NCBI GenBank assembly: GCA_021201905.1
Contig: JAJQEA010000030.1
Coordinates: forward strand, 1-35,995
Origin: Clostridia bacterium
GTDB taxonomy: Bacteria; Bacillota; Clostridia; Lachnospirales; Lachnospiraceae
Direction: 5' to 3'
DNA: 35,995 bases
Part shown: positions 9,217-30,224 of the stretch, piece after piece
How positions within the stretch are numbered: the stretch's first letter is position 1
How the letters are laid out: every line of letters begins with the position of its first letter
Notes under the pieces: generated by a model
The model's database searches: none
Seen by the model: the letters and a program-made list of their open reading frames with translations, nothing else
Told to the model about the DNA's origin: nothing
Position numbers and translations under genes: made by a program

Positions 9217-10077
9217 TCAGCTCAGTCCGGTCACCCCCACATCCATGCTCCCGGAACGAAATCCTTCTGCATCCAGGGTTATATATACGAACCCCATTTC
9301 CTTCAGACGGCTGACGATTTCTTTCCGGCATTTCATAAATGCACCAAATGCTTCCGGGTCCAGTTCCAGGCGCGCGATATCTCCGTGAAGCCTGAGACGT
9401 ACATTGCCGGGGACCATGGTTCTGACGTAGGCTTCCCCCGCTCCGATTCTTTCCAGCACCTCATAATCCAGGACAGCGCCGTAGGGCAGGCGGGTCGCCA
9501 TACAGGGAGTGGACGGGCGGGATGCCACTGATATCCCGTACTCTGACGCCAGGGCCTTTACCTGGGCCTTGGTTATGTGGAGCTCTGCCAAGGGACTTAT
9601 GATCCCCAGCTCCTTAAGCGCCTGGATTCCAGGGCGGTATACATGCATATCGTCCTCATTGGTGCCGTCCAGGATATACCGGATTCCCCTGGCCTGCGCC
9701 AGTTCTGCCAGCTTGGAGAACAGATGGCGCTTACACAGGTAACAGCGGTTTACCGGGTTATGTTTGATTGCCTCCTGCTCCAGCTCATCCACGGTAATGA
9801 CTTCATGGATTCCCCCCAGCTCCCCTGCCACGCGCCTGGCTATCTCTAGGTCGCAGGATGGATGCAGGCGGCTGTCAAACGTCACGGCATACACGTTTCT
9901 TCCCGTATGGGCGGCTGCGTCTGCGGCTGTCTTTAGAAGCAGGCTTGAGTCCACTCCGCCGGAAAATGCAAGGCATATATCCTCTTGGGTCAGCTGCTCC
10001 ATCCTGGCCTCCAGGCACTTTTTCATATGTTCCAGAGATGGCCTCTCATCGCTGTAGCTGTTATTTACCGTATTCAT
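9217..10077 (-). CDS. larE: LarE, sulfur transferase for nickel-pincer nucleotide synthesis
   Basis: LarE adenylates the pyridinium dicarboxylate mononucleotide made by LarB and converts its carboxylates to thiocarboxylates. The 286-residue protein has the PP-loop AFSGGVDSS at residues 37-45 and the family's closing region. The cysteine equivalent to the sacrificial residue of Lactiplantibacillus LarE lies in PSTPCMATRLPYG (Cys192). Two additional cysteines form CYLC at residues 112-115. LarE proteins with a CxxC plus the third Cys are the type known to bind a [4Fe-4S] cluster that carries the donated sulfur, so this one is probably catalytic rather than single-turnover. It starts 33 bases after larC and is the last gene of the nik-lar operon. 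Confidence 0.93.
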   Translation of the reverse strand: MNTVNNSYSDERPSLEHMKKCLEARMEQLTQEDICLAFSGGVDSSLLLKTAADAAAHTGRNVYAVTFDSRLHPSCDLEIARRVAGELGGIHEVITVDELEQEAIKHNPVNRCYLCKRHLFSKLAELAQARGIRYILDGTNEDDMHVYRPGIQALKELGIISPLAELHITKAQVKALASEYGISVASRPSTPCMATRLPYGAVLDYEVLERIGAGEAYVRTMVPGNVRLRLHGDIARLELDPEAFGAFMKCRKEIVSRLKEMGFVYITLDAEGFRSGSMDVGVTGLS

Positions 10078-10110
10078 ACGAATCTCCTAATCTGACATTA
10101 TCTGTATCCA

Positions 10111-11793
10111 TTAATCCTGCCGGCTTTCCTCCGCCTTCCTGCGCGCCTGATAATACGCGGTCTGAAAATCCACGCCCTGCTCCATACAGATACGCCGGAT
10201 GCTTTCATATTCCGGATAGAAGAACTTTCTGCCCTTGTAAGCACACACCTTCACATCCACTGGCCCGTAACTGGTTTCCACCTGGATTTCGCTCCGCTCA
10301 AGAACAGTCCTCTCCGTTGGATAACGACGGATTCCGATGGTGGTGGTCTGGGTCAGTATGATTTCCTCCATGGCCTCTATGGATGACTCACGGCAAAGCA
10401 CGGACAGCATATAGGCAGGACGGTTTTTCTTCATGTGAATCGGGGTATACCACACATCCGCGGCCCCGGCATCAAGGAGCATCTCCATGGTAAGGCCCAG
10501 CATTTCCCCTGTACAGTCATCCAGGTTCGTCTCCAACACCCACATGGCACGGTCCTCATCCTGTGAAGTCTCCAGCAGCATGGCCCTGAGCACGTTCGCC
10601 TGTTTAAAGACCTTGTTCCCCGCACCCATTCCTATCTTAAGCAGACGGCAGGAAGCAGGAAGCCGGTCCTTTGTCCGCAGCGCGGCGGCAATGGCTGCCC
10701 CGGTAGGCGTAACCATTTCCCCGTCATTGTCTGTAAAATGCAGCTTAAGCCCATAGGCGGAAACAATATTAGCCGTAGCCGGTACAGGAACCGGCAGTAC
10801 ACCGTGCTGGCAATGGACATGACCGTGACCTTCAGACAATGCAGAAACCACCACATCCTCCACGCCCAGATTGTCCATGCAGACCGCCACGCTGATAATG
10901 TCCACAATGGAATCAATGGCCCCCACTTCATGGAAATGAACCTGCTCAACAGAAAGCCCATGGGCCTTTGATTCCGCCTCCGCCACAATGCGGAACATGG
11001 TTCGGGCCATTTCCTTCACCCTTTCATTGGAATCCAGATGGTCTATGATATGAAAAATATCGTGGAGGTTACGGTGAATGTGGGAGTGAGGATGATTGTG
11101 AGCGTGGACATGGCTATGCTCATGATCGTGGAGGTGCTCATGGTCATGGCTGTGTCCAGGCTCATGGTCGTGGCTATGCCCAGGCTCATGGCTGTGTCCA
11201 TGGTCATGGTCGTGGCTATGCTCGTACTCATGATCGGGCCCATATTCATGGTCGTGGCTATGCCCATACTCATGGCTGTGTCCATGGTCATGGCTATGCC
11301 CATCCCCATGGTTGTGTCCATGGTCGTGGCTATGCTCATCCTCATGGTTGTGCCTATGGTCATGGCCAGTCTCATCCTCATGACTGTGCCCAGGCTCATG
11401 GTGGTGGCTATGCCCATCTTCATGGCTGTGCCCAGGCTCATGTTCATGCCTGTGCTCATCCTCATGGCCATCCTCATCCTTCTCCCCATGACAATGCTCA
11501 TGCACCTCTGAATGCCCGCATCTGCCTACTCGCTCATACGCAACCTCATGCTGATGCGTATGCTCATGGCCGTGCCCAGGCTCATGCCCATCCGCCTCCA
11601 AATGCACATCAAAATCAAAGGCATCCAGACCGCACACCACCTTCCGGCCAAAATGCAGATGGTATCCATCCACTCCCAGGCTCTCCAGCGCATGCTCCAG
11701 CACCTGCCTGTTCGCTCCCAGGTCAAGCAGGGCTCCTACCGTCATGTCCCCGCTGATACCCAAATTACACTCCAGATATAAAATCTTTCCCAT
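10111..11793 (-). CDS. larC: LarC, nickel insertion enzyme, single ORF with long His-rich insert
   Basis: LarC is the CTP-dependent cyclometallase that inserts nickel into the pincer nucleotide. The N-terminal core (ECNLGISGDMTVGALLDLG, residues 8-26) and C-terminal core (VEQVHFHEVGAIDSIVDI onward, ending in the VETNLDDCTGEMLG and YTPIHMKKNRPA blocks) are complete. The protein is 560 residues, well above the usual 400-430, because residues about 64-240 are an insert with about 64 histidines in 177 positions, mostly GHSHDHEPGHSHDHE-like units. In Lactiplantibacillus the two halves are joined by programmed frameshifting; here they are one continuous frame. The ATG lies one base after the larB stop codon. 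The insert probably stores or delivers nickel. Confidence 0.93.
   Translation of the reverse strand: MGKILYLECNLGISGDMTVGALLDLGANRQVLEHALESLGVDGYHLHFGRKVVCGLDAFDFDVHLEADGHEPGHGHEHTHQHEVAYERVGRCGHSEVHEHCHGEKDEDGHEDEHRHEHEPGHSHEDGHSHHHEPGHSHEDETGHDHRHNHEDEHSHDHGHNHGDGHSHDHGHSHEYGHSHDHEYGPDHEYEHSHDHDHGHSHEPGHSHDHEPGHSHDHEHLHDHEHSHVHAHNHPHSHIHRNLHDIFHIIDHLDSNERVKEMARTMFRIVAEAESKAHGLSVEQVHFHEVGAIDSIVDIISVAVCMDNLGVEDVVVSALSEGHGHVHCQHGVLPVPVPATANIVSAYGLKLHFTDNDGEMVTPTGAAIAAALRTKDRLPASCRLLKIGMGAGNKVFKQANVLRAMLLETSQDEDRAMWVLETNLDDCTGEMLGLTMEMLLDAGAADVWYTPIHMKKNRPAYMLSVLCRESSIEAMEEIILTQTTTIGIRRYPTERTVLERSEIQVETSYGPVDVKVCAYKGRKFFYPEYESIRRICMEQGVDFQTAYYQARRKAEESRQD
11065..11604 (-). repeat. degenerate DNA repeat encoding the LarC His-rich tract
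   Basis: Short units such as CATGGTCGTGGCTATGCC and CATGGCTGTGTCC (plus-strand reading) recur through this segment, encoding His-x-His runs on the minus strand. The period is irregular but in multiples of three. Such a tract is prone to slippage, so its length may vary among strains and may be misassembled. Confidence 0.8.
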
Positions 11794-11794
11794 T

Positions 11795-12538
11795 TTATCT
11801 CACCGCCATTCTGTTAATTTGGGTGGCCAGGTAGCCGGCCCCGTATCCATTGTCAATATTAACCACCGATATCCCGTTGGCGCAGGAATTAAGCATTGTA
11901 AGAAGAGCCGACAACCCATGGAAGCTGGCGCCGTATCCCACGGAGGTTGGGACTGCCACCACCGGGCATTCCACCAGACCTGCTATCACCGTGCCCAGGG
12001 CGCCTTCCATTCCGGCCACCGCCACAATGCAGCTGGCCTTGTCCAGGCGCTCCCTCTGGGCCAGAAGCCTGTGGATTCCGGCAACTCCCACATCAAATAT
12101 CCGGTCCACCCTGCATCCGAAATATTCAGCAGTCTGGGCCGCTTCCTCGGCCACCGGTATGTCCGCCGTGCCTCCCGTGCACACTGCCACACATCCCTTG
12201 TGCTCCTTACCCGGCTTCTCCACCTTGAGTATTCGTGATATGGGATCATACACCACCTCCGGCACCGCTGTTCTCACCAGCTCAGCCTGGCTCTCAGAAG
12301 CCCTGGTTCCCAGGACCTCCCCGTCTCTCTCATAAAATTTCTTATAAATTTCCAGCAAATACGCATCCGGCTTTCCCTGGCAGAATACGGTTTCCCCAAA
12401 ACCGGAGCGCAGCTTCCTGTGATGGTCCAGCTTGGCATATCCCAAATCCTCATATGGCAGGTTCTTAAGCAGCTTCTGCGCATCCTCTATCTCAACACTG
12501 CCGAACTTTACCTGTTCCAGTAATTCCCTGACATCCAT
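11795..12538 (-). CDS. larB: LarB, pyridinium-3,5-biscarboxylate mononucleotide synthase
   Basis: LarB carboxylates nicotinic acid adenine dinucleotide at C5 and hydrolyses it to the dicarboxylated mononucleotide, the first step of nickel-pincer cofactor synthesis. The 247-residue protein has the PurE-like core from about residue 115 (CVAVCTGGTADIPVAEEAA), the VAGMEGALGTVIAGLVECPVVAVPTSVGYG block and the catalytic Cys near the end (LNSCANGI, Cys219, corresponding to Cys221 of the characterised enzyme). The N-terminal 100 residues carry the usual helical LarB extension. It follows the ABC importer genes by 35 bases and is one base from larC. Confidence 0.93.
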   Translation of the reverse strand: MDVRELLEQVKFGSVEIEDAQKLLKNLPYEDLGYAKLDHHRKLRSGFGETVFCQGKPDAYLLEIYKKFYERDGEVLGTRASESQAELVRTAVPEVVYDPISRILKVEKPGKEHKGCVAVCTGGTADIPVAEEAAQTAEYFGCRVDRIFDVGVAGIHRLLAQRERLDKASCIVAVAGMEGALGTVIAGLVECPVVAVPTSVGYGASFHGLSALLTMLNSCANGISVVNIDNGYGAGYLATQINRMAVR

Positions 12539-12573: not shown

Positions 12574-13182
12574 CTAATCCGTTCTCAAATCAACCACCCT
12601 GCCGCAAACACGTTCCAGCAGCTCATCTGAATGGCTGACCACCAGAAGACCCAGCCTCCGGGTTTTCACTTCCTCCAAAAGGAATCCCCAGATTTGGCTC
12701 TGGGTGATAAGGTCCAGCATGGTGCTTATCTCATCTGCCAGAATAAACCGGGTGCGCTTTCCCAGGGCCCTGGCTATACAAAACCGCTGCAGCTCCCCGC
12801 CGGACAGCTCTCCCGGATACCGGTTCAGCCAGTCCGGTTCGATTCCCAGGCCGCGGACCACCCGCTCCTCCACGCAGTCCCCTTCCCTCAACACCTCCCG
12901 CATCTTGAGGCGGGGATTTACCGACAGTTCCGGATGCTGCCATATCATCTGCACAGGATTGTAACCGTTCCAGGAAGAAATGTTTTTTCCATCCAAAGTC
13001 ACGGCCCCATGGTCTGGCTTCTCATAACCAGCCAGTATCTTGCAAAAAGTAGTCTTCCCAAAACCGCTGGGAGCCGTCAGTCCCACGCGTTCCCCGCTCT
13101 CCAGACTCATGCTTACATTGTTCAGTATTTTCCTGTTCCCATTGTCGTATTGAAACGAAATATTCACTGCTTCCAGTCTCAT
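12574..13182 (-). CDS. ABC transporter ATP-binding protein (NikE/OppF-like), probable nickel importer
   Basis: The protein has 202 residues from the ATG at 13182, preferred over the one at 13200 because it makes an ATGA overlap with the upstream gene and has AAGGTGG at the right distance. The Walker A motif APSGFGKT, signature LSGGELQR and Walker B FILADE are all present. It lacks the long C-terminal oligopeptide-family extension found in its partner, so it is the shorter NikE/OppF-type subunit. Together with the preceding ATPase, two permeases and a binding lipoprotein it makes a complete five-part importer. Nickel as cargo is inferred from the lar genes that follow directly. Confidence 0.85.
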   Translation of the reverse strand: MRLEAVNISFQYDNGNRKILNNVSMSLESGERVGLTAPSGFGKTTFCKILAGYEKPDHGAVTLDGKNISSWNGYNPVQMIWQHPELSVNPRLKMREVLREGDCVEERVVRGLGIEPDWLNRYPGELSGGELQRFCIARALGKRTRFILADEISTMLDLITQSQIWGFLLEEVKTRRLGLLVVSHSDELLERVCGRVVDLRTD

Positions 13183-14111
13183 ACTCCCACCTTCCTGCAT
13201 TTTACCATGCCGCCGCGAAAACTGCGATAGGAAATTTCCTGGAGACAGCCCTCGTCCATATCCGGGCAGCGGGGCCTATAGGGACATCCCGCGGGCATAT
13301 CCGCCGCATAGGGCTGTGTACCGGACGCCCCTTTAAAACCGTGGCGGGGCATAGCCCTGAAAAGAGCTCTGGTATAGGGATGACGAAGCCTCTGCTCATC
13401 CCCAAAATCCTCTGCCAGGGCCTCCTCCACATTGGTACCCGCATAAAATACCACGATTCTGTCAGCCACCTCCAGGGCCAGCTCCAAATCATGGGTGATG
13501 AGAAGGACCCCTGCCCCCTGGTCCGCTATCTCCCGGAAATGGGAGAGCACGCGCCTGGCCGCGCTGATATGAAGCCCTGGCGTGGGCTCGTCCGCAATGA
13601 CCAGTCTGGGTTGCTCCATCACTGCCGTGGAAATCAGAACCCTTCTGGTCATTCCTCCTGACAGTTCAAACGGATACAGCCCCTCCGTATCCTCTCCCAG
13701 CCCATAGCGCCCCAGAGACTCACGGCAGTGCTTCACACTCTCCTTATCCTTCTGTCCCCTCCGTACCTGCTCCCCCACCTTCATGAGCGGATCCAGATAG
13801 GACACGCTCTGGGGTACCAGTACCATCCGGCTCCCACGGAGCTGTTCCTTCCGCTTCTGGTTCAGGATTTCCCCCTCAAAGGAAACCGTTCCCTGACAGG
13901 CGGCATTCTGCGGCAGCAGTCCCATGACCGCGTGGGCCAAAAGGCTTTTTCCCGAACCGCTGGAACCGGCTACAGCCACCACCTCATGCTCCCGCACCTT
14001 TATATTCAGGTCCCGAATCACGGGAAGCTCCCTCTGGCGCCATCCCCCCACATACTGGGAAAATGAAATCATCAGGTGCTCCACCGACAATATGACTTGT
14101 TTTTCTTCCAT
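13179..14111 (-). CDS. ABC transporter ATP-binding protein (NikD/OppD-like), probable nickel importer
   Basis: This 310-residue ATPase has Walker A GSSGSGKS near residue 51, signature LSGGMTRR and Walker B LVIADEP. It ends with the Cys-containing oligopeptide/nickel-type C-terminal domain (CPYRPRCPDMDEGC), in which Cys clusters in some members bind iron-sulfur centres. It couples ATP hydrolysis to import through the two permeases encoded just upstream. The stop codon overlaps the next ATPase start by four bases. Assignment to nickel rather than peptide rests on operon context. Confidence 0.87.
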   Translation of the reverse strand: MEEKQVILSVEHLMISFSQYVGGWRQRELPVIRDLNIKVREHEVVAVAGSSGSGKSLLAHAVMGLLPQNAACQGTVSFEGEILNQKRKEQLRGSRMVLVPQSVSYLDPLMKVGEQVRRGQKDKESVKHCRESLGRYGLGEDTEGLYPFELSGGMTRRVLISTAVMEQPRLVIADEPTPGLHISAARRVLSHFREIADQGAGVLLITHDLELALEVADRIVVFYAGTNVEEALAEDFGDEQRLRHPYTRALFRAMPRHGFKGASGTQPYAADMPAGCPYRPRCPDMDEGCLQEISYRSFRGGMVKCRKVGV

Positions 14112-14158: not shown

Positions 14159-14995
14159 CTACAGATGAGCCTGGGCCGGGTCCAGCAGACGGCTCAGCGT
14201 ATCCCCGATAAAATGGAACAGGACCACCACAAATACCAGCAGCAGCCCCGGAAACAGGGCCAGCCACCATTTTCCCATGACCAGGTATTTCATGCTCTCA
14301 GACAGGATAACGCCCACCGCAGGCTGCTCCGGCGGCAGTCCGAAGCCCAGGAAGGTTATGCTGGCCTCATGAAGGATTGCATGGGGAAACAGCAGAACCA
14401 TGCCCACAAACAGCTGGGGCAGCAGATGAGGCGTCATATGTTTGAAGGCAATATAAAACCTTCCCTTTCCCAGCTTCCTGGCAACCTGTATGTACTGGCT
14501 CTCACGAAGCTGCATGACCTCCCCCCGCAGGAGCCTGGCCAGGGATGTCCAGTGGGTCAGTGAAATGCCAATCAGTACACCCCAGAATCCCTTGCCCACT
14601 GCAAAGGAAATGAGAATCAGCAGCAGGATATGGGGTATTCCCATGACCAGATCAATGATTCCCCCTATGACAGCGTCCGTGACCCTGCCCAGACAGGCGG
14701 CCATGGTTCCCATGATAAAGGCCACCACCGCGCTGATGCATGCTGTCAAAAGCCCGATGCGTATGCTGATGGATAAGCCTGTAAGGCTGCGGACGAACAT
14801 ATCCCTTCCCATCCAGTCTGTTCCAAAGGGATAGGCCAGGCTGGGCGGCAGATTCTTTCTGGTGAAATCCGTGGCCAGAGCCTGGTCCTTTAACACCTGG
14901 CCGGCAATGGCAATGGCCGCCAGCAGGACCACCGATACCGCCAGCAGCACCGCCATGGCCTTGCGGCGGTTCCATCTGTGTCTTTGTGCGCTCAT
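14159..14995 (-). CDS. ABC transporter permease (NikC/DppC-like)
   Basis: The protein is 278 residues starting at the ATG at 14995, which overlaps the upstream permease stop as ATGA; the open frame continues upstream but only as a shadow of that gene. An N-terminal anchor helix, a periplasm-side segment containing AYPFGTDWMGRDMFVRSL (typical of the DppC/NikC group) and five further membrane spans are visible. The cytoplasmic coupling loop is LLRGEVMQLRESQYIQVARKLG. It forms the channel with the NikB-like subunit. Confidence 0.88.
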   Translation of the reverse strand: MSAQRHRWNRRKAMAVLLAVSVVLLAAIAIAGQVLKDQALATDFTRKNLPPSLAYPFGTDWMGRDMFVRSLTGLSISIRIGLLTACISAVVAFIMGTMAACLGRVTDAVIGGIIDLVMGIPHILLLILISFAVGKGFWGVLIGISLTHWTSLARLLRGEVMQLRESQYIQVARKLGKGRFYIAFKHMTPHLLPQLFVGMVLLFPHAILHEASITFLGFGLPPEQPAVGVILSESMKYLVMGKWWLALFPGLLLVFVVVLFHFIGDTLSRLLDPAQAHL

Positions 14996-15972
14996 CCCCT
15001 GGTCCTCCTGATTCTGGGATCCACCGCTCCATACAAGAGGTTGGCGGTGAAGTTCCCTAAAAATACAATGGCCGCGCTGATGATAGTAATTCCCATCAAA
15101 AGGGGCACATCCCCGCCCAGTCCGGCCGTCACAGCAGCCTGTCCCAGACCCGGATAGGAAAATACCTGCTCCACCAGCACGGATCCTCCGAATATCTCGC
15201 TGACAGAGGCAAACTGGAGCGTCATGGCAGGAAGCAGGATGTTGCGGATTCCATGCCTGCGGATAATGGACCATTCCGACTCCCCCCTGGCCCTGGCAAA
15301 CAGTACATAATCACTTTCCATGACCTCTGCCATCTTCTCCCTTGTGTGGAGGGCAATGTTGGAGATGCCTGTAATGGACAATGCCGCCGCAGGCAGTATG
15401 CCATGAATCAGGCGGTCCTTCATGGTCACAGCCGACGCCTCCACCCCGATTGGAACGGAAAGTCCTATGGGGAGCACCTTAAGCCAGACCGCGAATACAA
15501 CCAACAGCACCAGGGCCACCCAAAAGGCCGGCGTACTGGCAGTGACCAGGGCATAGGAAGAAATAATTCGGTCCGCTGCCTTTCCCTTCTTTGCCCCGGC
15601 TATGATTCCCATAAGGAACCCAATGAATCCGGACAAAATCCATGCCGCCGCCATAATCCAAAGGGAATTGGCCAGCTTCTCCCCGATTACCTGGGCCACA
15701 GGCCTGCGGTACAAAAGGGAGATACCCATATCTCCCTTAAGAAAATCACTGGCCCAGGCCAGATAACGGGTTACAGGCGGTGTGTTGACGCCCCAGTATT
15801 CCTGGAGCCTGGCAATCTGCTCGCTGCTCATGCTGCCAAGGGCCGCCTGCCCCACATTGGTGGTAAGCGGGTCCAGGGGAGAGACCGACACCAGGAAAAA
15901 CGCCGCCATACTCACCAGCACCAGCAAAACCGCCATCCGTATGAAATTAACACCCGCCTGTTTCCAACTCAT
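14992..15972 (-). CDS. ABC transporter permease (NikB/DppB-like)
   Basis: This 326-residue protein has the N-terminal membrane anchor, the LDPLTTNVGQAALGSMSSEQIARLQEYWGVNTPPVTRYLAWASDFLKGDMGISLLYRRPV segment that typifies DppB/NikB permeases, and five more spans. The EAA-type coupling loop reads DYVLFARARGESEWSIIRRHGIRN. It follows the binding lipoprotein by 39 bases and overlaps the NikC-like gene by four. Cargo is inferred to be nickel or a nickel chelate from the lar genes downstream. Confidence 0.88.
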   Translation of the reverse strand: MSWKQAGVNFIRMAVLLVLVSMAAFFLVSVSPLDPLTTNVGQAALGSMSSEQIARLQEYWGVNTPPVTRYLAWASDFLKGDMGISLLYRRPVAQVIGEKLANSLWIMAAAWILSGFIGFLMGIIAGAKKGKAADRIISSYALVTASTPAFWVALVLLVVFAVWLKVLPIGLSVPIGVEASAVTMKDRLIHGILPAAALSITGISNIALHTREKMAEVMESDYVLFARARGESEWSIIRRHGIRNILLPAMTLQFASVSEIFGGSVLVEQVFSYPGLGQAAVTAGLGGDVPLLMGITIISAAIVFLGNFTANLLYGAVDPRIRRTRG

Positions 15973-21994: not shown

Positions 21995-23152
21995 TTATAT
22001 CTGCATTTTCTTATAGCGCTCAGCCATCTCCTCCAGGGAAACCTGTTCCACCAGAGGCGCCTTGCCGTAGGAGCCAAACTGTACGATGAGGGTGCCCACC
22101 ACTTCCTTGACGCCCCGCTCAATACAGTCTGTTATGGCTGCCGTATCCTCATCCGGTATAACGCTGGTCATCACCGTATCCATGATTGGAGTAAGGAATA
22201 CCCTGGGGTCAAACTGCTCCCTCTTGGACTCTAAAAGTTCGTAGATGCCCCCGATGGAGCTGCTGTTTCTCTTATCCGGGTTCCGGGCGAAAAACTCCTT
22301 CATATTGCGGGTAACCGCCAGTCTGATATCCGTATCCACATTAATCTTGTTGATACCGCATCTGGCCGCTTCCTGCAGTTCATGGATGGCAATTCCGTAG
22401 GTGCCGGTCAGCGTGCCTCCCAGCCCGTTAATCTCATTCACAATATATTCCGGAACCGTGGACGATCCATGGGATACCAGGGCACCGAAAATTCCCTCAT
22501 GGTTCAGGCACTCCCGTATAGCCACCGCAATCTCCTTGCGCAGCTTTACATCCTTTCCCTTGGAGGCCCCGTGCATGGTTCCGTAGGATATGGCCAGTGC
22601 GTCCACTCCGGTCTTGCGGAAAAATTCAACCGCCTTTAAGGGATTGGTATAAGTGGAGCCCTCTGAAAACACATGGTCCTCCACTCCGGCCAGCACTCCC
22701 AGCTCCCCTTCCACGCTGACGCCTCTTGCATGTGCGTATTTCACCACTTCCCGGGTCAGCTCCACATTTTCGTCAAAGGCAAGGGACGACCCGTCAATCA
22801 TCACGGAGGTGTATCCCCCTGCAATGGCGGCCGCGCAGGAATCAAAATCCCGCCCGTGGTCCAGATGAAGGACAATGGGGACAGGACTGTTCTCCCCATA
22901 TTTCTTTACGGCCCTGGCAATATTTTTGGCGCCCTTTTTCTTATCCTCCAGGGTTGCGTTCATAAAGTCGCATCTTCCCCCCATGAAGCCGTTTGCCAGA
23001 TCCGCTCCCTGCAATATGGCAGCGGAGCGGAACATCTCATGGACCCCGATGGCGGCCTTTGCCTGTGCCACCGCGTTGACGTTGAAAGCGCCCTGGGCAA
23101 ATCCATGTTTAACAGAAGCCTCCATGAGAGGTCTTAATGGAATCAATGTCAT
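21995..23152 (-). CDS. class II fructose-bisphosphate aldolase family protein (long form)
   Basis: The protein has 385 residues and carries class II zinc aldolase motifs: LHLDHG (zinc ligands, near residue 95), MIDGSS, VEGELG, a modified SYGTMHGASKG in place of the usual GTSHG, SHGSSTVP and INVDTD. It cleaves a ketose 1,6-bisphosphate (or 1-phosphate) to dihydroxyacetone phosphate plus an aldehyde. The length and the C-terminal extension match the long bacterial/archaeal-like subgroup. GGAAGG precedes the ATG. It is one of two different class II aldolases in this operon, which implies either two substrates or a two-component enzyme. Confidence 0.85.
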   Translation of the reverse strand: MTLIPLRPLMEASVKHGFAQGAFNVNAVAQAKAAIGVHEMFRSAAILQGADLANGFMGGRCDFMNATLEDKKKGAKNIARAVKKYGENSPVPIVLHLDHGRDFDSCAAAIAGGYTSVMIDGSSLAFDENVELTREVVKYAHARGVSVEGELGVLAGVEDHVFSEGSTYTNPLKAVEFFRKTGVDALAISYGTMHGASKGKDVKLRKEIAVAIRECLNHEGIFGALVSHGSSTVPEYIVNEINGLGGTLTGTYGIAIHELQEAARCGINKINVDTDIRLAVTRNMKEFFARNPDKRNSSSIGGIYELLESKREQFDPRVFLTPIMDTVMTSVIPDEDTAAITDCIERGVKEVVGTLIVQFGSYGKAPLVEQVSLEEMAERYKKMQI

Positions 23153-23192: not shown

Positions 23193-24032
23193 TCATGCCT
23201 TTTCCCGGGAGCCTGCCAGCCGGATAATGTCTTTAATGTCCTCGCGCAGCCGCAGTTCTGCATACTGTGATAATTTCCAGGCGTGGCCCTGGTCCTTACC
23301 CTCAGCCAGCCCCTCTTTCAGATAGTTCACATACTGGCAGCGCACCTGGGTCCCAAAATTAATCTTGGCCACTCCGCTGTCAATGGAACGCTTCACCAGT
23401 TCCTCATCCATGCCCGTGCAGCCGTGAAGAACAAAGGGGATGTCCGTAAACTTCCTGCACTCCTCCAGCACCTCCACCCGGATATCCACAGGCCCGTTGT
23501 AAAACCCGTGTGCATTACCGATGCCGATGGCCAGTGAATCGGGACGGCAGAGCTTAAGATACTGCCTCACCACATCCGGATCCGCGATGTTGGACGCTCC
23601 CATCTTATTTCCCTTGTCATCCAGGTGGCACAGCTCGCCGATTTCCGCCTCCAGGGGCACGCCAAAGGACCTGCACACCCTGGCCACCGCCTCTGTGGCA
23701 GCTGCATTTTCCTCCACAGGCAGGGCGGAACCGTCAAACATGATAGAGGTGAATCCCAGCTTCAGCATCTCCATGCAGCGCTCAAAGCTGTCTCCGTGGT
23801 CCAGATGGATTGCAACCGGCACAGATACCTTGCCGGCCATCCATTTTGCCGTCTCATAAAACCAGTCATGGCCTGAATAAGCCCCGGTATTCACATAGTG
23901 GGCCAGTATGACCGGGGAGCGAAGCTCCTCCGCGGCCATGCACATGGCCCGTATGATGTCATAGGTTCCTCCCTGGGTATTGATGGCGGGAACCGCATAA
24001 TGTCCTTTTATAGGCATTCTGAAGCATTTCAT
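23193..24032 (-). CDS. class II aldolase, KbaY/GatY type, with probable frameshift at its N-terminus
   Basis: The open frame from 24032 gives 279 residues with AVPAINTQGG, AIHLDHG (zinc site), MFDGS, EAEIGEL, AIGNAHG, LHGCTGM and KINFGT, all typical of the ketose-bisphosphate aldolases that include tagatose-bisphosphate aldolase. The true start appears to be elsewhere. AAGGAG stands six bases before an ATG at 24048 whose frame reads MLTTTYEMLQNAYK, the standard family N-terminus, and then loses frame in an AAAA tract (plus positions 24006-24009). Removing one A would give QNAYKGHYAVPAIN, matching the family exactly. Either the gene is damaged, translation uses a poorly positioned internal ATG, or one base is a sequencing error. 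Confidence 0.8.
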   Translation of the reverse strand: MKCFRMPIKGHYAVPAINTQGGTYDIIRAMCMAAEELRSPVILAHYVNTGAYSGHDWFYETAKWMAGKVSVPVAIHLDHGDSFERCMEMLKLGFTSIMFDGSALPVEENAAATEAVARVCRSFGVPLEAEIGELCHLDDKGNKMGASNIADPDVVRQYLKLCRPDSLAIGIGNAHGFYNGPVDIRVEVLEECRKFTDIPFVLHGCTGMDEELVKRSIDSGVAKINFGTQVRCQYVNYLKEGLAEGKDQGHAWKLSQYAELRLREDIKDIIRLAGSREKA

Positions 24033-24061: not shown

Positions 24062-25078
24062 TCAGATGTTCACGATGACTTTCAGATAATCGGAGGGGGA
24101 CTGGATCATGTCCTTTATGGTATCCTCCACCTGGTCCAGTTCAATCATCTTTGTTATGATTGCGTCCGTTGGTACCCTGCCCTCGTTTACCAGACTGATT
24201 GCCTCCGGGAACTTTCCGTTGGAATTCCTGGAAGGGCACACGTCAATTTCCTTCTGCATCAGGCGTACCGTGTTGATCCGCACCGGGTCATGAGGCCATC
24301 CCACCAGGGCAATCCTTCCTCCATGGCACACGTAATTATGCATGTTCTCCAGAATGATCGGAGCTCCTGTACAGTCAATCATGGCCTCAGGCAGCTTGCC
24401 GCCTGTCACCTCCCGCAGATACTCCTCCACATTTCCATCCCTGGAATTAAAGGTGCATGGCACTCCCAGCTCCTTTGCGTAATCCAGACGCTTTTGCAGC
24501 ACATCCACCAGAATAGGGGTGGCTCCGTAGTTGATGCAGGCAAATGCAGCCATGAGGCCGATGATGCCGGCTCCGAACACAACGCAGTGCTCTCCCTCCG
24601 ATACCCTGGCCCTGGTGGCCCCGTGAAGGCCGATGGTTAAGGGTTCCACCAGGGCTGCGTGGGTAAAGGTCAGTTCATCGGGAAGCTTATATAAAAGCTG
24701 CACCGGATGAAGGAAGTACTCGGACATCATGCCGTCCTTGTGTACGCCGCACACATGAAGGTCCGCGCAGTTATTGAAGCGCCCAGCCGCGCACATATGG
24801 CACTTGTTGCAGGGCACATAGGGTTCCAGGGCCACCCGGTCCCCTGGCTTTAACCCTTTGTCATTCTCCCCGATTTCCTCAATGACGCCCACGCCCTCAT
24901 GGCCCAGCCCGTTAATGGGATAGCGCATGGTGGGGTTCACCCCTCTGTAGGCAGTCACGTCCGAACCGCAGATACCGCACATTTCCATCTTTATGATTGC
25001 CTGGCCTTCCTTCAGCTCCGGCATGGGCAAATCCTTTATCACCAGGTTTCCTGGCTCCGGCAGACATAATACCTTCAT
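24062..25078 (-). CDS. zinc-dependent medium-chain alcohol/polyol dehydrogenase
   Basis: The protein is 338 residues from the ATG at 25078, chosen because GAGGAGG precedes it; the longer frame to 25156 overlaps the SDR gene and is not needed. Catalytic zinc ligands are Cys37 (CGICGSD) and His60-Glu61 (GLGHEG). The structural zinc site uses Cys90, 93, 96 and 104 (CNKCHMCAAGRFNNC). The nucleotide fold has VVFGAGIIGLMAA. It resembles the L-galactonate, sorbitol and L-idonate dehydrogenase group and should oxidise a secondary alcohol of a sugar, polyol or aldonate with NAD(P). It starts four bases after the SDR stop codon. Together they could invert a hydroxyl through a keto intermediate. Confidence 0.87.
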   Translation of the reverse strand: MKVLCLPEPGNLVIKDLPMPELKEGQAIIKMEMCGICGSDVTAYRGVNPTMRYPINGLGHEGVGVIEEIGENDKGLKPGDRVALEPYVPCNKCHMCAAGRFNNCADLHVCGVHKDGMMSEYFLHPVQLLYKLPDELTFTHAALVEPLTIGLHGATRARVSEGEHCVVFGAGIIGLMAAFACINYGATPILVDVLQKRLDYAKELGVPCTFNSRDGNVEEYLREVTGGKLPEAMIDCTGAPIILENMHNYVCHGGRIALVGWPHDPVRINTVRLMQKEIDVCPSRNSNGKFPEAISLVNEGRVPTDAIITKMIELDQVEDTIKDMIQSPSDYLKVIVNI

Positions 25079-25082: not shown

Positions 25083-25880
25083 TCAATCCTCCTCATTCTC
25101 TCTGATATAGTCAAGCGCGTGGGGCATGATGCCCAGGGACCAGCCTCCATCGGCAAATATCACCTGGCCCACAATGTAGTCCGATTCTTTACAGGCAAGG
25201 AAACAGGCCAGACTGGCAATTTCCTCTGTCTTTCCGAAGCGTCCCACAGGCGACACGGACAATATGGCCTCCTCATCCAGTATTCCTGATTTAAGGGGCT
25301 TTTCCACCATCTCCGTCCGAATCCAGCCCGGAGCAATGGCATTTACTTTGATGTTGTACAGGGCCCATTCTGCTCCCAGCTGCTCTGTCAGCAGATTCAC
25401 AGCACCCTTTGTGATGCCGTAGGGCACCCGGCCCACATTAATCATCCTGGTGTTTCCGGAGGAGATATTGACAATGCTCCCTCCCCCGTCCCGTCTCATA
25501 TAAGCTCCCACGGCCTGGCAGCAGAACAGCGGGGCCTTCATGTTGATGTCGATGACCTCGTCCAGCACTTCCTCCGTCAGCTTCAGGGCGGGACAGGCAC
25601 GGGCCACCCCCGCACAGTTTACCAGTATATCAATATGCCCGTATGTTTTATGTACATAATCCGCCATGGCGAATATCTGCCCTCTGTCCCGCAGATTAAT
25701 GTGATAAAACTCCGCCACAGGGCCGATGTCCATGGCAGCCTTTCTGCCCTCTTCCTCCAGCACGTCTGCAATGACCACCCTGGCTCCTTCGTCCGCATAT
25801 CTGGAAGCAATTCCAAACCCGATTCCTCTGGCTCCGCCTGTGACGATGGCTGTCTTTCCATTTAACCGTCCTGATTCCAT
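25083..25880 (-). CDS. short-chain dehydrogenase/reductase (SDR), gluconate-5-dehydrogenase-like
   Basis: This 265-residue classical SDR has the Rossmann motif TGGARGIG (residues 14-21), NCAG (88-91), catalytic Ser141, Tyr154 and Lys158 (YGITK), and the closing FADGGW. It reduces or oxidises a carbonyl/secondary alcohol with NAD(P). Subgroup placement near 5-keto-gluconate reductases is by general resemblance only. It follows the ABC ATPase by four bases and precedes the zinc dehydrogenase by four, so all three are in one transcript. A redox pair of SDR plus zinc dehydrogenase is common in polyol and sugar-acid pathways. Confidence 0.87.
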   Translation of the reverse strand: MESGRLNGKTAIVTGGARGIGFGIASRYADEGARVVIADVLEEEGRKAAMDIGPVAEFYHINLRDRGQIFAMADYVHKTYGHIDILVNCAGVARACPALKLTEEVLDEVIDINMKAPLFCCQAVGAYMRRDGGGSIVNISSGNTRMINVGRVPYGITKGAVNLLTEQLGAEWALYNIKVNAIAPGWIRTEMVEKPLKSGILDEEAILSVSPVGRFGKTEEIASLACFLACKESDYIVGQVIFADGGWSLGIMPHALDYIRENEED

Positions 25881-25884: not shown

Positions 25885-26643
25885 CTACCACCATTTTATC
25901 TTGTCTGTTATATAGTTTCGGTACTCAATAAACCGTGAGGATGTGATATCCCTGGGTCTTGGCAGGTCAATCCGCACCTCCTCCTTGATTTTAGCCGGTT
26001 TGTTGCTGAGAATGAGCACGCGCTCCGCCAGATACACGGCTTCCTCTATGTTGTGGGTAATGAATACCACCGTGCTCCCCAGCTCCTTCCACAGGCGTAT
26101 GACCTCATCCTCCAGATAAAAGCGCATCTTTACATCCATCTGTCCGTAGGGCTCATCCATCAGCAGCAGGTCCGGCTGCATGGCAAAGGAACGTCCGATG
26201 ATGATTCTCTGCTCCGCTGATACGGACAGCTCACCTGGATACGCCTTCCTGAACTCCTGAAGTCCCATCAGGTCCAGTATCTGATCCACCCTGCGGTCGA
26301 TTTCAGCCTTGGGGATTCTCTTAATCTTAAGTCCATAGGCCAGGTTATCCTCCACGGTCAGCCACGGAAGGGCGCTTGGCTCCTGGAACACAAAGGAAAT
26401 GTTGTGTTTGCGCGGGTCCGCAGGGACTCCGTCTATATACAGGTCGCCCTCACTGGGCATATGAATCCTGGTAAGGCAGTTTAAAAACGTGGTCTTTCCG
26501 CAGCCTGTAGGCCCCACTACACACACGAACTCGCCTTTGCGGATATTAAATGACATGTCGTCCAGCACCAGCAGGTCGCCGAACCGCTTTGTAAGATTCC
26601 TGACCTCGACTTTTATGGGTCGGGTATCCTCTCTCTCAGGCAT
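25885..26643 (-). CDS. ABC ATPase (TauB/SsuB-like) with degenerate signature motif
   Basis: The protein has 252 residues with Walker A GPTGCGKT (44-51), Q-loop Gln87, Walker B LLLMDE (catalytic Glu164) and H-loop His197. The signature, normally LSGGM, is LSVSA (139-143). It belongs to the nitrate/sulfonate/taurine family of importers. The next-upstream gene encodes a second ATPase with the opposite defect, so the two should form a heterodimer with one active and one degenerate ATP site. It is separated from that gene by 13 bases and followed directly by the SDR gene. Confidence 0.87.
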   Translation of the reverse strand: MPEREDTRPIKVEVRNLTKRFGDLLVLDDMSFNIRKGEFVCVVGPTGCGKTTFLNCLTRIHMPSEGDLYIDGVPADPRKHNISFVFQEPSALPWLTVEDNLAYGLKIKRIPKAEIDRRVDQILDLMGLQEFRKAYPGELSVSAEQRIIIGRSFAMQPDLLLMDEPYGQMDVKMRFYLEDEVIRLWKELGSTVVFITHNIEEAVYLAERVLILSNKPAKIKEEVRIDLPRPRDITSSRFIEYRNYITDKIKWW

Positions 26644-26656: not shown

Positions 26657-27424
26657 TTAAATTGCTAAATCAGTGTTGTCGGAAATAACCGTACGCAGCT
26701 TCAGGAATTCCCCGCTTACCATATCCCTTGGCCTGGGTATGCTGATGGGATATACTTCCTTTACAGTGGCCGGGCAGTCGCTGAGAAGGATGATTCTGTC
26801 TCCCAGATAGCAGGCTTCCTCTATATTGTTGGTGACGAAAATGACGGTACGCTTTTCCTTTTCCCAGATTCTTAAGATTTCCTCCTGCATCTGGTACCGG
26901 GTCTGGGCATCCAGCTGTCCAAAGGGCTCGTCCATGATTAACAGCTTGGGGTCCGCCGCATACGCCCTGGCGATTCCCACCCTCTGCTTCATGCCGCCTG
27001 ACAGCTGGGTGGGATAGGATTTCTCAAAACCCTTAAGGCCCACCAGCTCTATGTAATGCTGTGCAATCTCCCTGCGCTTCCCCTTGGGCATTCCCCGGAA
27101 TTTAAGGCCCAGCTCCACATTTTCCATAACCGTCTTAAAGGGCATCAGGGCCAGCTTCTGGAACACCATGCTGATTTCCGGGTTTACGCCCTTCCACTCT
27201 CTGCCGTTGTACACAACCCTTCCCTCTGTCTGCTGCTCCAGCCCAGCGATGATATTGAGCAGCACGGTCTTGCCGCAGCGCCCCGGCCCCAGGATTACCA
27301 GAAATTCGCCGTCGTTCACATCAAAGCTCACATCTTTTATGGCTGTAAAATATCCCTTGTCGCTGAAAAACGTCTTGGATATCCCATTTATTTCCATTCG
27401 TTTGTTTAATTGTTCCACGGACAC
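26657..27424 (-). CDS. ABC ATPase (TauB/SsuB-like) lacking the H-loop histidine
   Basis: The 255-residue protein has Walker A GPGRCGKT (46-53), a canonical signature LSGGM (141-145) and Walker B LLIMDE (Glu166), but the H-loop reads FVTNNIEEA, with Asn199 where His is expected. The start is a GTG at 27424 overlapping the permease gene by 19 bases, with GAAGGTGG close upstream; an ATG nine codons later lacks a ribosome site. It is the partner of the downstream ATPase in a four-component importer with two different permeases. Confidence 0.85.
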   Translation of the reverse strand: MSVEQLNKRMEINGISKTFFSDKGYFTAIKDVSFDVNDGEFLVILGPGRCGKTVLLNIIAGLEQQTEGRVVYNGREWKGVNPEISMVFQKLALMPFKTVMENVELGLKFRGMPKGKRREIAQHYIELVGLKGFEKSYPTQLSGGMKQRVGIARAYAADPKLLIMDEPFGQLDAQTRYQMQEEILRIWEKEKRTVIFVTNNIEEACYLGDRIILLSDCPATVKEVYPISIPRPRDMVSGEFLKLRTVISDNTDLAI

Positions 27425-28191
27425 ACCACCTTCTCAAGTTTTTGAAGCCCCAGTGACAAAAGGGCGCCAATAATTGCAATGGTTATGACAGAGACAAGTA
27501 CCAGGGCCATATCGCTTCCCTGCCAGCCTCTGGTCACCAGCGCTCCCAGTCCTTTCTGGGCGCCTAACATCTCGGCCGCCAGCACCGTTGTCCAGCCTGA
27601 GCTGACCGAGGTGCGGATTCCCGCAAAGATGGAGGACAGGGCAGTGGGGATAACAATATCCGTCAGTATCTGCCTGTTATTTCCGCCAAATACATGGCCT
27701 ACATCCAAATTGATTTTATCCACCATCTCAATTCCCGTGGAGGTGTTGATGACCAACGGCACAAAGGTTCCGATAAACACCAGCAATACCTTTGGAAATT
27801 CACCGATGCCGAACCACATGATTACAATGGGAATCCAGGCAATGGGCGGAATGGGGCGGATAACCTCAAATATGCTGTCAAAGAATGCCTTGCATTTCTT
27901 ATTCCATCCAATGAGAATGCCAAAGGAAATACCAAAGGCCCACGCGATGAGCAGCGCCATGAGCACACGCCTTAAGCTGGCCCATGCGTGTCCTGCCAGG
28001 GAGGTCTTTGCAATGGGTTTGGTAAATGTTTTCACAAATCGCGCCCATACGTCAGCCGGGGCGGGCATCAGCTCCGGGTGGCTGGCTGAGAACAGGACCC
28101 AGCCCACGGCAATCATCAGGATTGCCAATACAGGCAGGCCGTAATACAGGACGTTTCTCAATGTTTTCTGCTGTTTGCTTGCTACATCCAT
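27406..28191 (-). CDS. ABC transporter permease (TauC/SsuC-like)
   Basis: This 261-residue protein has six membrane segments and the BPD_transp_1 coupling segment. The PIPPIAWIPIVIMWFGIGEFPKVLLVFIGTFVPLVINTSTGI stretch is a hallmark of nitrate/sulfonate/taurine-type permeases. It pairs with the different permease encoded just upstream (gap of 15 bases), so the channel is probably a heterodimer. The imported solute is unknown; family members carry sulfonates, nitrate, cyanate, pyrimidine precursors and aromatic acids. Confidence 0.88.
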   Translation of the reverse strand: MDVASKQQKTLRNVLYYGLPVLAILMIAVGWVLFSASHPELMPAPADVWARFVKTFTKPIAKTSLAGHAWASLRRVLMALLIAWAFGISFGILIGWNKKCKAFFDSIFEVIRPIPPIAWIPIVIMWFGIGEFPKVLLVFIGTFVPLVINTSTGIEMVDKINLDVGHVFGGNNRQILTDIVIPTALSSIFAGIRTSVSSGWTTVLAAEMLGAQKGLGALVTRGWQGSDMALVLVSVITIAIIGALLSLGLQKLEKVVCPWNN

Positions 28192-28206: not shown

Positions 28207-29040
28207 CTACCTGTTTACCTTCCAGCGCAGGAAATATTTTTCTGCCCTGGACAAAAATCCTGAAAGAATGGCTCCGATGGCTCCAATCACCACCATACCC
28301 ACGATTACAATATCCGGGCGTGCCACGGTACGGCCAATCTGAATCATGTATCCCAGTCCGGCGCTGGCTGCCAGCATCTCTGCCGCCACCAGGGTGGACC
28401 AGGAATTTCCCAATGCCACACGGATTCCGGCAAATACCATGGGAAGGGAGGAAGGTACCCCCACCTTCCAGAATATCTCCGCGTTGGAGGCCCCAAAGGT
28501 CCTGGACACATTGATCAGCATCTTGTTGGTCAGCTTTATGCCTGTGTAGGAATTGATGACACAGGGCACAAAGGCGGTAAAAAAGATGATGAGCGCCTTT
28601 GCCTTCAGACCGATTCCCATCCACACCACTACCAGGGGAATCCAGGCAATGGGGGGAACCGGCCTCACCAGCTCAAAGATGGGGCGGATGAAACGGTCCG
28701 CATAGGTCCACCAGCCCATGACCAGTCCCAGGGGAACGCCGATGATGATGGCTGCCAGGAAACCGGATAAGGCAACCTGGAGACTGGCCAGTATATTCAC
28801 CCAAAGGACGTTGCCGTCCGGGGCCTTATTCGCAAACTTATACATCAGGGTCTCAAAAATCTGAGTGGGCGCGGGAAGCATCCTTTCATTGACAAGACCC
28901 ACACTTACCACCAGCTGCCACACGGCCAGCAGCGTGATGATGCCTGCCGCGCTTAGCAGGGCGTAATTCAGGCCTTCCTTTGATTTCTGCTTTTTCCACT
29001 CCAAAAGGCCAGCCTCTAATTTCTCATTTCCAGTTGCCAT
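28207..29040 (-). CDS. ABC transporter permease (TauC/SsuC-like), second subunit
   Basis: This 277-residue protein has an N-terminal charged region, then six spans with the conserved PVPPIAWIPLVVVWMGIGLKAKALIIFFTAFVPCVINSYTGIKL block and a coupling segment around SRTFGASNAEIFWKVGVP. It is homologous to the next permease but clearly distinct, as in heteromeric importers. It begins 20 bases after the binding-protein stop codon and has an AGGAGTTGAGATACCG region upstream. The operon then continues to the ATPases. Confidence 0.88.
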   Translation of the reverse strand: MATGNEKLEAGLLEWKKQKSKEGLNYALLSAAGIITLLAVWQLVVSVGLVNERMLPAPTQIFETLMYKFANKAPDGNVLWVNILASLQVALSGFLAAIIIGVPLGLVMGWWTYADRFIRPIFELVRPVPPIAWIPLVVVWMGIGLKAKALIIFFTAFVPCVINSYTGIKLTNKMLINVSRTFGASNAEIFWKVGVPSSLPMVFAGIRVALGNSWSTLVAAEMLAASAGLGYMIQIGRTVARPDIVIVGMVVIGAIGAILSGFLSRAEKYFLRWKVNR

Positions 29041-29060
29041 ATCGGTATCTCAACTCCTTT

Positions 29061-30224
29061 TTAATTTGCGGTTTCGGTCAGTACCTCATTTAACAGCTTT
29101 CCATCCGTATGTCCCACGAATCTCTCCTGGTCGCCTTCCTTGTAGTTGCCCACGCTGATGAAGAAATCAAGTACGTCCAGAAGTCTCTGGTCCATAACCG
29201 TATTGTCGGAGCCCTCTGCCTTGTCATTCAGCATGCCGCATGCCTCCTGAAGAGTGTAATATGTATCGGCCTCCAGATATTTTGCAGTTGTCTCCCTGTC
29301 CATGGAGCTTCCGTTCTCATCGTTCATGTCCACACAGTAGTCAATGGCCTTTTCCTTGTTCTCCTTCATCCAGTCCATGGTCTTAAAGTACACTTCCATG
29401 AACACCTTCATGGCCTCGTATTTATCCGGATCCGCGTAGCTGTTCTTATTTGCCACAAAGCTGCACATCAGACCGGAGTCAGCCATGGGACCGCTGGCCA
29501 CTGGCGTATACTTATCGGATTCAGCCAGCATCTTGAAGGTGCCGCCAGATCCTGTCAGCACGCACACGTCGCCCTCGCCGGCCAGGAATGCGCTGTAAGC
29601 CGTTGCCGGGTCCATGGCGATGAAGTTCACATCGTCAACCGTAAGCCCAAAGCCTTCCAGTACCTTAATCAGCACGTACTGGGTAACGCTTCCCGTGTTG
29701 CACAGGATGGATTTTCCCTTCCAGCTGTCCGCATCCCCGTAAATTTCATCACTCAGGCTGTTATGTCCCTTGCCGGCTTTCACGATATCCGAATCATTTC
29801 TGGCAAATACATACTGTGTTCCGTCATCCGTATTGCTGGAGCCAAGGACCAGGGCATCGTACCCCAGAACGCCTGCGAACACGCCGCCCACGCCGGTACA
29901 GCCGATATCCCATCCGTCCGATGAAAGGGACTCCATCTGCACCGGGCCGTTGGTGAACAGCACTTCCTCAATATCCAGTCCCTTTTCCTTAAACTACCCT
30001 TCCTGCTCCGCTATGTAGATAGGAAGATAATTAAGGCTGCCTCCAATGCCGGACACCGTAAGCTCATAGCTCTTGTCCGCTGTTTTGCCGTCACCTGTTC
30101 CCGATGCCTGAGCCTGTGTATCCGCCTTCTTGGAATCCGAACCTGCCCCGCAGCCTGATACCAGTCCGGCGCACATAACTGCTGCCATGGTCACTGCCAA
30201 TGTCTTTACTAATGATTTTCTCAT
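29061..30224 (-). pseudogene. NMT1/SsuA-like substrate-binding lipoprotein interrupted by an in-frame TAG
   Basis: The start at 30224 has a perfect AGGAGGT and a lipoprotein signal (MRKSLVKTLAVTMAAVMCAG, lipobox SGCGAG with Cys25). Codon 77, plus positions 29994-29996, is TAG, giving ...YIAEQEG-stop-FKEKGLDIEEV. The frame then continues without another stop for about 310 codons, through VQMESLSSDGWDIGCTGVGGV to TETAN. Family members usually have an aromatic residue at this place (EQEGWFKEKGL style), so one G-to-A change in TGG explains it. The full product would be 387 residues and is the binding component for the two permeases that follow. Without it the importer should be inactive unless the codon is suppressed or is a sequencing error. 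Confidence 0.82.

Follow-up and report, generated by a model that had tools for sequence, protein, structure and literature searches.

A stretch of 35,995 nucleotides from a Clostridia bacterium of the Lachnospiraceae (assembly GCA_021201905.1, contig JAJQEA010000030.1), referred to below as the window, carries an operon that closes with a gene for a homologue of the nickel-dependent enzyme LarA. The source genome comprises 5.85 Mb in 431 contigs and is 99.77% complete with 8.01% contamination. Read in order on the minus strand, the operon encodes an SsuA-like binding protein, two permeases and two ATPases of an ATP-binding cassette (ABC) importer, a short-chain dehydrogenase/reductase (SDR), a Zn-dehydrogenase, two class II aldolases, a phosphofructokinase (PFK), a triosephosphate isomerase (TIM)-like enzyme and LarA. 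Past LarA and a gap of about 0.7 kb follow a Nik/Opp-type importer and larB, larC and larE, also on the minus strand, and a LacI-family regulator gene and an aldose-1-epimerase-like gene lie divergently upstream of the operon (Table 1). The initial annotation had named these genes and their order correctly and had rightly counted a single LarA in the window; the whole genome has seven Lar_N matches. The arrangement is more than chance: G005 and G015, both near relatives, have the operon together with its nickel and cofactor genes as well.

Judged by its sequence, the window LarA is a member of the published single-histidine subfamily and not a lactate racemase. It matches both solved single-histidine proteins, LarASp and LarABw, nearly end to end (880.5 and 865.8 bits), compared with 73.5 bits to the malate racemase Mar2, 54.6 bits to the lactate racemase LarA of L. 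plantarum and 110.9 bits to the lactate racemase profile NF033504, for which the cut-off is 460. The close grouping with lactate racemases that the initial annotation had named as a check on its proposal is thus not found. The second catalytic histidine is Asn in all 62 aligned proteins of the subfamily, the window LarA included, and the description of the enzyme as a racemase or epimerase is not supported. Lactate, malate and LarAH10-type racemases were each rejected as identities, with scores far under the cut-offs and the second histidine absent. None of the 62 proteins lacks the cofactor lysine, the nickel-ligand histidine or the first catalytic histidine; in LarASp numbering Asp73, Lys76, His115, Lys195, the nickel ligand His211, His306 and Tyr307 are each kept throughout, and C-terminal histidines at 399 and 402 occur in 61. 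The subfamily is uncommon, with matches at E <= 1e-60 in 9 of 398 genomes across the phylum (the source genome counted).

Structures of the subfamily have been solved for LarABw of Blautia wexlerae (PDB 9Q3J) and LarASp of Streptococcus plurextorum (9Q3K, 9Q2U) (PMC12611868). According to the accessible parts of that report and its preprint, LarASp held an unidentified ligand of 316.5 Da and did not racemise lactate, and the gene neighbours of single-histidine LarA are carbohydrate- and glycolysis-like (PMC12611868; preprint PMC12393405). The carbohydrate context was already in print in 2025, and the pathway can be called undescribed, as the initial annotation had it, only in part. LarA enzymes of known substrate act on 2-hydroxyacids, as far as the available text of two further papers goes (PMC11770544, PMC7583248). 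At the positions of the Arg and His of hydroxyacid racemases the LarA studied here has Lys and Asn. Our guess is that it catalyses a redox-neutral rearrangement or elimination rather than racemisation.

The neighbourhoods of 61 LarA genes (49 + 12) were surveyed, with one representative of most families checked by Pfam/NCBIfam and the remaining members assigned by similarity to those. The set excludes L129, in which LarA is 32% identical, and L104 to L107, which have the same block as the window and L038; some loci end at contig ends, for example L061 and L073, which start inside LarA. A TIM-like gene is present in 54 of the loci, a class II aldolase in 47 and a PFK in 44, so that the proposed tie between LarA and a glycolysis-like cleavage pathway holds well beyond the window. 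The suggested linkage of larA to both aldolase and importer is upheld for the aldolase; the importer type varies, with an SsuA-type binding protein in 26 loci. Further members are NagB-like (29), NagA-like (24), glucose-6-phosphate isomerase (PGI)-like (12), ManA-like (4) and AGE-type (2) genes, and relatives of the aldose-1-epimerase gene (17). A ketohexokinase-type gene occurs in seven loci. Lacrimispora-type loci have no PFK but a prokaryotic-ketohexokinase-family protein, a replacement that fits phosphorylation at C1. The seven loci without a TIM-like gene are the two that start inside LarA, three with a 3-hydroxyacid dehydrogenase (L082, L125, L127) and two with neither (L109, L110). In L109 and L110 (the second copy of G015, and G008) close LarA relatives stand directly after an SsuA-type importer, with no TIM-like gene or PFK, and are accompanied by two aldolases or by SDR and Zn-dehydrogenase.

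Several of these paralogues have lost the residues that would bind a phosphate group. Residues were read by alignment to the E. coli enzymes and to the genome's own copies, in proteins that passed length and score filters (53 TIM-like, 28 NagB-like, 24 NagA-like and 10 PGI-like), and their roles are assumed to be those of the E. coli TIM, NagB, NagA, PGI and PFK active sites. All 53 TIM-like proteins and that of the window keep the catalytic Lys, His and Glu and replace the phosphate-binding Ser/Gly/Gly by Gly/Ala/Leu; after these comes Thr and then Arg (50), Lys (2) or Asn (1). The NagB-like proteins keep D72, H143 and E148 and, in 28 of 28, have Val for T41, a gap at 43-44 with loss of T44, no Arg at 172 and His for K208, together with invariant Arg, Trp and Arg at 205, 207 and 209. 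A NagB-like protein reaches 99 of the 236.9 bits required for glucosamine-6-phosphate deaminase (TIGR00502). R227 is His in all 24 NagA-like proteins, in which E131, H195, H216, H251 and D273, metal ligands among them, are kept. In all ten PGI-like proteins the loop Ser-Lys-Thr-Phe-Thr-Thr has become Ala, Lys, Asn/Asp, Phe, Glu/Gly/Asn/Gln, Thr. The genome's own canonical TIM (L090), PGI (L130, which reads SKSGTT) and NagA (L131) keep their phosphate-binding residues, and its TIM L091 keeps Ser and the first Gly only. Another, distant TIM-like protein of the genome (L093) was dropped as a control because its alignment was not trustworthy. In L108, which has a second PFK-TIM pair elsewhere in the genome, that TIM keeps the phosphate Ser and first Gly and not the second Gly.

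Since four unrelated families lose phosphate binding side by side, a 6-phosphate substrate is hard to reconcile with these loci, and the sugar probably carries a non-phosphate acidic group, with sulfate, sulfonate and carboxylate taken together. Ordinary sugar-phosphate metabolism, in which divergent paralogues would bind phosphate differently and LarA would act on a phosphorylated sugar, is very unlikely to be the explanation, as a related genome has separate copies of these enzymes that retain the phosphate-binding residues. Such metabolism would nevertheless agree with the NagA-like protein, which passes the TIGR00221 cut-off (313.7/225.65), and with basic residues retained in two enzymes: R243 and R252 are still present in the PFK paralogue, and aldolase A seems to retain the arginines aligned to the Giardia enzyme, at what we take to be its site positions. 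A linear phosphorylated aldose has also been modelled into unexplained density of the LarA structure, an assignment that the authors, in the text available, call highly speculative (PMC12611868).

The PFK paralogue has lost R162 and H249, as have the genome's other copies of the pyrophosphate (PPi) type, and lacks the GHK-containing stretch. Positions 104 and 124 of PFK indicate the phosphoryl donor. The protein, earlier named a PPi-phosphofructokinase, matches a PPi-type subfamily but reads GGNG instead of GGND, which four of the genome's six other PFK copies have, and as a firm name this was not accepted.

Sulfur-linked genes are enriched near LarA. TSUP-family genes, named sulfite exporter in Pfam, occur in 21 of the 61 loci, sulfatases in 11 and an anaerobic sulfatase maturase in five. 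For the 47 loci with counted genomes, TSUP genes were found in 14 against 0.58 expected from the per-genome number, in a test whose Poisson tail ignores shared descent; the TSUP-bearing loci belong to lineages with little mutual similarity. The TSUP profile was seeded with proteins of L122 and L124, and in both places Pfam matches as well. Near LarA lie 15 sulfatase genes compared with about 1.2 expected on a background of 17 same-genus genomes. All 15 have the CxPxR motif and, with their N-termini judged by eye, they are without signal peptides and would be cytosolic. Backgrounds were counted for TSUP and sulfatase genes. By profile scores, the importer in the window resembles taurine/sulfonate importers.

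The same neighbours may point to a sulfonate at C6, and thus to a new branch of sulfoglycolysis for sulfoquinovose or a related sugar in which TIM and LarA would act on 3-sulfolactaldehyde, perhaps freeing sulfite. The sulfonate-type importer and the TSUP genes would suit this, as would the shorter group in the filled TIM site. The dehydrogenase beside LarA in L082, L125 and L127 reaches 172.2 bits to the sulfolactaldehyde-reductase-related NF012005, under the cut-off of 348, but its score to tartronate semialdehyde reductase is better, at 197.4 bits. The NagA paralogues of 24 loci and the NagB paralogues of 29 point instead to N-acetylated amino sugars, for which we know of no common 6-sulfonate. 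Enterocloster is reported, in the part of the source available, to use a transaldolase route for sulfoquinovose (PMC12330013). On balance the sulfonate is unlikely.

A carboxylate appears improbable. In this case (amino)hexuronates would be split into dihydroxyacetone phosphate (DHAP) and tartronate semialdehyde, and TIM (giving hydroxypyruvate) or tartronate semialdehyde reductase, plus LarA, would then act on 2-hydroxyacids, the known substrates of LarA enzymes in the available text (PMC11770544, PMC7583248). The group is small enough for the filled TIM site and the L125 dehydrogenase fits tartronate semialdehyde reductase best, but the enrichment of sulfatases, TSUP and sulfonate-type importers is left unexplained, and the Arg and His of hydroxyacid racemases are Lys and Asn in this LarA. 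The Cys-type sulfatases and the ketohexokinase-family protein of some loci could also mean that desulfation comes first and that the paralogues work on neutral sugars, from N-acetylglucosamine (GlcNAc) through glucosamine and fructose to fructose-1-phosphate, then to DHAP and glyceraldehyde, the latter converted to dihydroxyacetone by the TIM-like enzyme. This route is very improbable, given that sulfatases lie near LarA in just 11 of 61 loci and that the new invariant Arg residues of NagB (28/28) and the Arg of TIM (50/53) suggest an anion.

The reading tentatively favoured here is a "shadow" Embden-Meyerhof pathway that takes hexoses whose C6 bears an acidic group other than phosphate, most likely a sulfate ester. 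In mucin, GlcNAc-6-sulfate is common. A C6-substituted sugar would be imported intact, in the window by the sulfonate-type ABC importer, and entry enzymes would make the 6-substituted ketose, these being NagA/NagB, PGI or ManA paralogues in other loci and probably the SDR and Zn-dehydrogenase in the window. As these two stand at the place of NagA/NagB or PGI, the sugar used here may differ and could, as a guess, be of galactose type. The PFK paralogue (or the ketohexokinase-family protein in Lacrimispora-type loci) would phosphorylate C1, and a class II aldolase would split the product into DHAP and a C3 aldehyde that retains the substituent. The C3 piece would pass to the TIM-like enzyme and to LarA, the latter acting as a one-histidine nickel-pincer hydride-transfer enzyme; the two are placed at this stage because they are the most constant pair. 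The LacI regulator would govern the operon along with nickel import and cofactor synthesis.

For the last step, LarA might remove sulfate (or sulfite) from the C3 piece and leave methylglyoxal, which is quite unlikely. Hydride would be taken from the hydroxyl-bearing carbon of glyceraldehyde-3-sulfate, or of dihydroxyacetone sulfate supplied by the TIM-like enzyme, and returned to the substituent-bearing carbon with expulsion of sulfate or sulfite. One histidine would be enough since the hydroxyl is oxidised for good. Dismutation of methylglyoxal by LarA was considered as an alternative end step.

A number of observations weigh against the favoured pathway. A sulfate ester equals phosphate in size, yet larger side chains occupy the TIM site, as would suit a smaller group. 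The PGI-like loop keeps two residues, K208 and T212, in 10 of 10 proteins, and the basic residues retained in PFK and aldolase A have been described above. As for the genome's own controls, NagB L101 is not cleanly aligned at R172 and NagA L132 likewise has His at 227. The NagA, NagB and PGI paralogues are not in the window itself; of the four families that lose phosphate sites only the TIM-like one is there, and the PFK has mixed residues. The loci share ancestry, one common arrangement accounts for six of the eleven sulfatase loci, and 12 of 61 loci have no SsuA-type binding protein, TSUP or sulfatase. The binding-protein gene in the window (start 30224) is interrupted by an in-frame TAG near 29996; G005 and G015 have an uninterrupted copy, so that the stop would reflect either a loss in this strain or an error of assembly. 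To these may be added the genomes without LarB and LarC considered next.

The cluster that follows the operon contains the genes for synthesis of the nickel-pincer nucleotide (NPN) cofactor, with LarB, LarC1, LarC2 and LarE all above their NCBIfam equivalog cut-offs. All five proteins of the importer beside it score far under the NikABCDE cut-offs, for which reason the firm name nickel importer was not accepted: of the initial annotation's claim the position before larBCE stands, and a putative nickel role is assigned from this linkage. The window has three copies of the palindrome CAAACGTTTG, two of them in the stretch that separates the operon from the lacI-type gene and the third upstream of a promoter-like site belonging to the nik-larBCE cluster; a fourth, slightly different palindrome, CAAACGTTTC, lies at 4928-4937. 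Four sites were reached in 0 of 100 shuffles. At least one SAAACGTTTS site is found in 38 of 49 loci (47 sites in total versus about 4 expected from base composition), and for 29 of the 31 lacI-type genes of this cluster such a site lies no more than 400 bases from the start. L104 and L107 likewise have the one that precedes the nickel cluster. These sequences support joint control of nik-larBCE and the catabolic operon via a LacI-type operator. The CAAACGTTTC palindrome is inside the 4127-5119 frame, between a DUF6783 part and a choline-binding part, a position that hints at a true gene start further downstream.

The earlier coupling of cofactor genes to the operon is thus borne out for this genome, by the common operator and by the same arrangement in G005 and G015, but is not universal. 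LarC lies in 11 of the 61 loci, and of 48 genomes that carry this LarA 10 have no LarC. Nine of these ten, with LarB searched in 18 genomes and LarE only in the neighbourhoods of the window, had no LarB above the cut-off either (L058, L062, L063, L068, L069, L075, L082, L083, L084); several are drafts, but the complete chromosome of Breznakiella homolactica (L082) is among them. The weak LarB matches of that search are presumably PurE. Such genomes may obtain the cofactor from neighbours or use LarA otherwise.

Table 1. Features of the window, in the order of the operon, with the matches behind each name
Feature	Position	Strand	Basis
Aldose-1-epimerase-like gene	31890..32642	+	Pfam Aldose_epim 68.5 bits
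LacI-family regulator, divergent	30647..31741	+	Pfam LacI + Peripla_BP_3
Operator-like site between operon and lacI-type gene	30559..30568		CAAACGTTTG
Operator-like site before operon	30467..30476		CAAACGTTTG
SsuA-like substrate-binding lipoprotein gene	29061..30224	-	SsuA_fam TIGR01728 62.6 bits, under 163.5 cut-off
ABC permease, TauC-like	28207..29040	-	Pfam BPD_transp_1; best NCBIfam TauC 183.6 bits, under cut-off 342
ABC permease, TauC-like	27406..28191	-	Pfam BPD_transp_1; TauC 159 bits, under cut-off 342
ABC ATPase, SaoA/taurine type	26657..27424	-	Pfam/NCBIfam
ABC ATPase, SaoA/sulfonate type	25885..26643	-	Pfam/NCBIfam
SDR	25083..25880	-	Pfam adh_short_C2 193.7 bits; glucose 1-dehydrogenase subfamily 219.2, cut-off 215
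Zn-dependent alcohol/polyol-type dehydrogenase	24062..25078	-	Pfam ADH_N + ADH_zinc_N
Class II aldolase B, GatY/KbaY-like	23193..24032	-	Pfam F_bP_aldolase 230.8 bits; PDB relatives
Class II aldolase A	21995..23152	-	Pfam F_bP_aldolase 240.2 bits
PFK paralogue, PRK14072 subfamily	20747..21991	-	PPi-type NCBIfam subfamily 416.4 bits, cut-off 273
TIM-like isomerase	19942..20781	-	Pfam TIM 125.2 bits; TIM equivalogs under cut-off
LarA, single-histidine (Asn185) subfamily	18407..19900	-	Pfam Lar_N; 880.5 bits to 9q2u/9q3k
Operator-like site before nik-larBCE cluster, beside promoter-like site	18007..18016		CAAACGTTTG
NikA/Opp-type binding protein	16012..17700	-	Pfam SBP_bac_5; NikA 158.6 bits, cut-off 393
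NikB/Opp-type permease	14992..15972	-	NikB 167.8 bits, cut-off 447
NikC/Opp-type permease	14159..15274	-	NikC 161 bits, cut-off 358
NikD/Opp-type ATPase	13179..14111	-	NikD 142.2 bits, cut-off 319
NikE/Opp-type ATPase	12574..13200	-	NikE equivalog score far under cut-off
larB	11795..12538	-	NF033503 294.9 bits, cut-off 175
larC, one frame	10111..11793	-	TIGR00299 and NF052512 over cut-off; LarC1 200.4 bits, cut-off 90; LarC2 157.1 bits, cut-off 50
larE	9217..10077	-	TIGR00268 270.4 bits, cut-off 150

For two entries in Table 1 the gene start needs comment. The open reading frame of the Zn-dehydrogenase is called from 25156 and its NCBIfam family matches begin only at residue 27, and the NikC/Opp-type permease probably starts downstream of its open reading frame, which overlaps the preceding gene. 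Aldolase A is the form seen in most related loci. The larC product is not split into LarC1 and LarC2 and has a very long His-rich insertion (about residues 65-240), which perhaps serves in nickel binding or storage. L104 and L107, from the two near relatives, have an extra ABC-importer-like set, absent from the window, that separates LarA from the nik genes. Further LarA homologues were also seen in the source genome. A divergent one in L138 lies beside LacI-type, TRAP-transporter-like, Gfo/Idh-like, NagB-like and NagA-like genes (the last names partly by eye). Of those in L141 and L140, with neighbours named by eye, one adjoins a four-carbon-acid-sugar-kinase-like gene and the other (a 641-aa frame) aconitase/LeuCD-like genes.

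The system has likenesses to several known ones. With the lactate racemase system larBCDE it shares larB, larC, larE, the cofactor lysine and the nickel-ligand histidine, but it differs in its low NF033504 score and in the absence of the second catalytic histidine. Classical glycolysis and amino-sugar-phosphate catabolism have homologous enzymes in a plausible order, whereas here the phosphate-binding residues of the TIM, NagB, NagA and PGI paralogues are replaced. The aldolases 8q57 and 8q58 are taken by us to be of SqiA type. The sulfo-EMP and sulfo-EMP2 pathways, in the portion of the source available, follow a similar logic in which a C6-modified glucose is isomerised, phosphorylated at C1 and cleaved by an aldolase to DHAP and a modified C3 aldehyde (PMC12890257). 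Unlike these, the present loci combine PFK, TIM, NagA/NagB and PGI paralogues with LarA, and the C6 group is one we infer. With LarABw and LarASp the window LarA has in common a full-length sequence match, the Asn at the second histidine and the active-site residues, and glycolysis-like neighbours are reported for them too; the operator shared with nickel and cofactor genes, the sulfonate-type importer and the loss of phosphate sites are additional here and go unmentioned in the accessible sections of that account (PMC12611868).

The LarA subfamily and its carbohydrate context are accordingly already published, and what is new is the 61-locus survey, the phosphate-site loss, the sulfur-linked neighbours and the common operator. 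Among the titles and abstract openings considered, mostly of open papers, none ties LarA to sulfated or sulfonated sugars, and two texts (PMC12421959, PMC13232883) contain both "sulfolactaldehyde" and "LarA"; no report of phosphate-site loss, sulfur-linked neighbours or a common operator was found in this mostly open literature.

The pathway is real and conserved and is still unexplained. Single-histidine LarA has solved structures and no known substrate, and the search can now be narrowed from carbohydrates in general to a pathway whose enzymes have given up phosphate binding, with GlcNAc-6-sulfate, glucose-6-sulfate, fructose-6-sulfate, glyceraldehyde-3-sulfate and the sulfonate or uronate analogues as candidates. 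Database names within these operons, such as GlcNAc-6-phosphate deacetylase, glucose-6-phosphate isomerase and triosephosphate isomerase, may be wrong. The shared operator suggests that nickel import and NPN synthesis can share control with a catabolic operon. The removal of sulfate or sulfite by LarA, if true, would add a new reaction to those of the cofactor and would allow 6-sulfated host sugars, e.g. GlcNAc-6-sulfate, to be used independently of oxygen and of sulfatases. A sulfate at C6, if that is the group, would give Lachnospiraceae of the gut a glycolysis by which sulfated host sugars could be used without first being desulfated.

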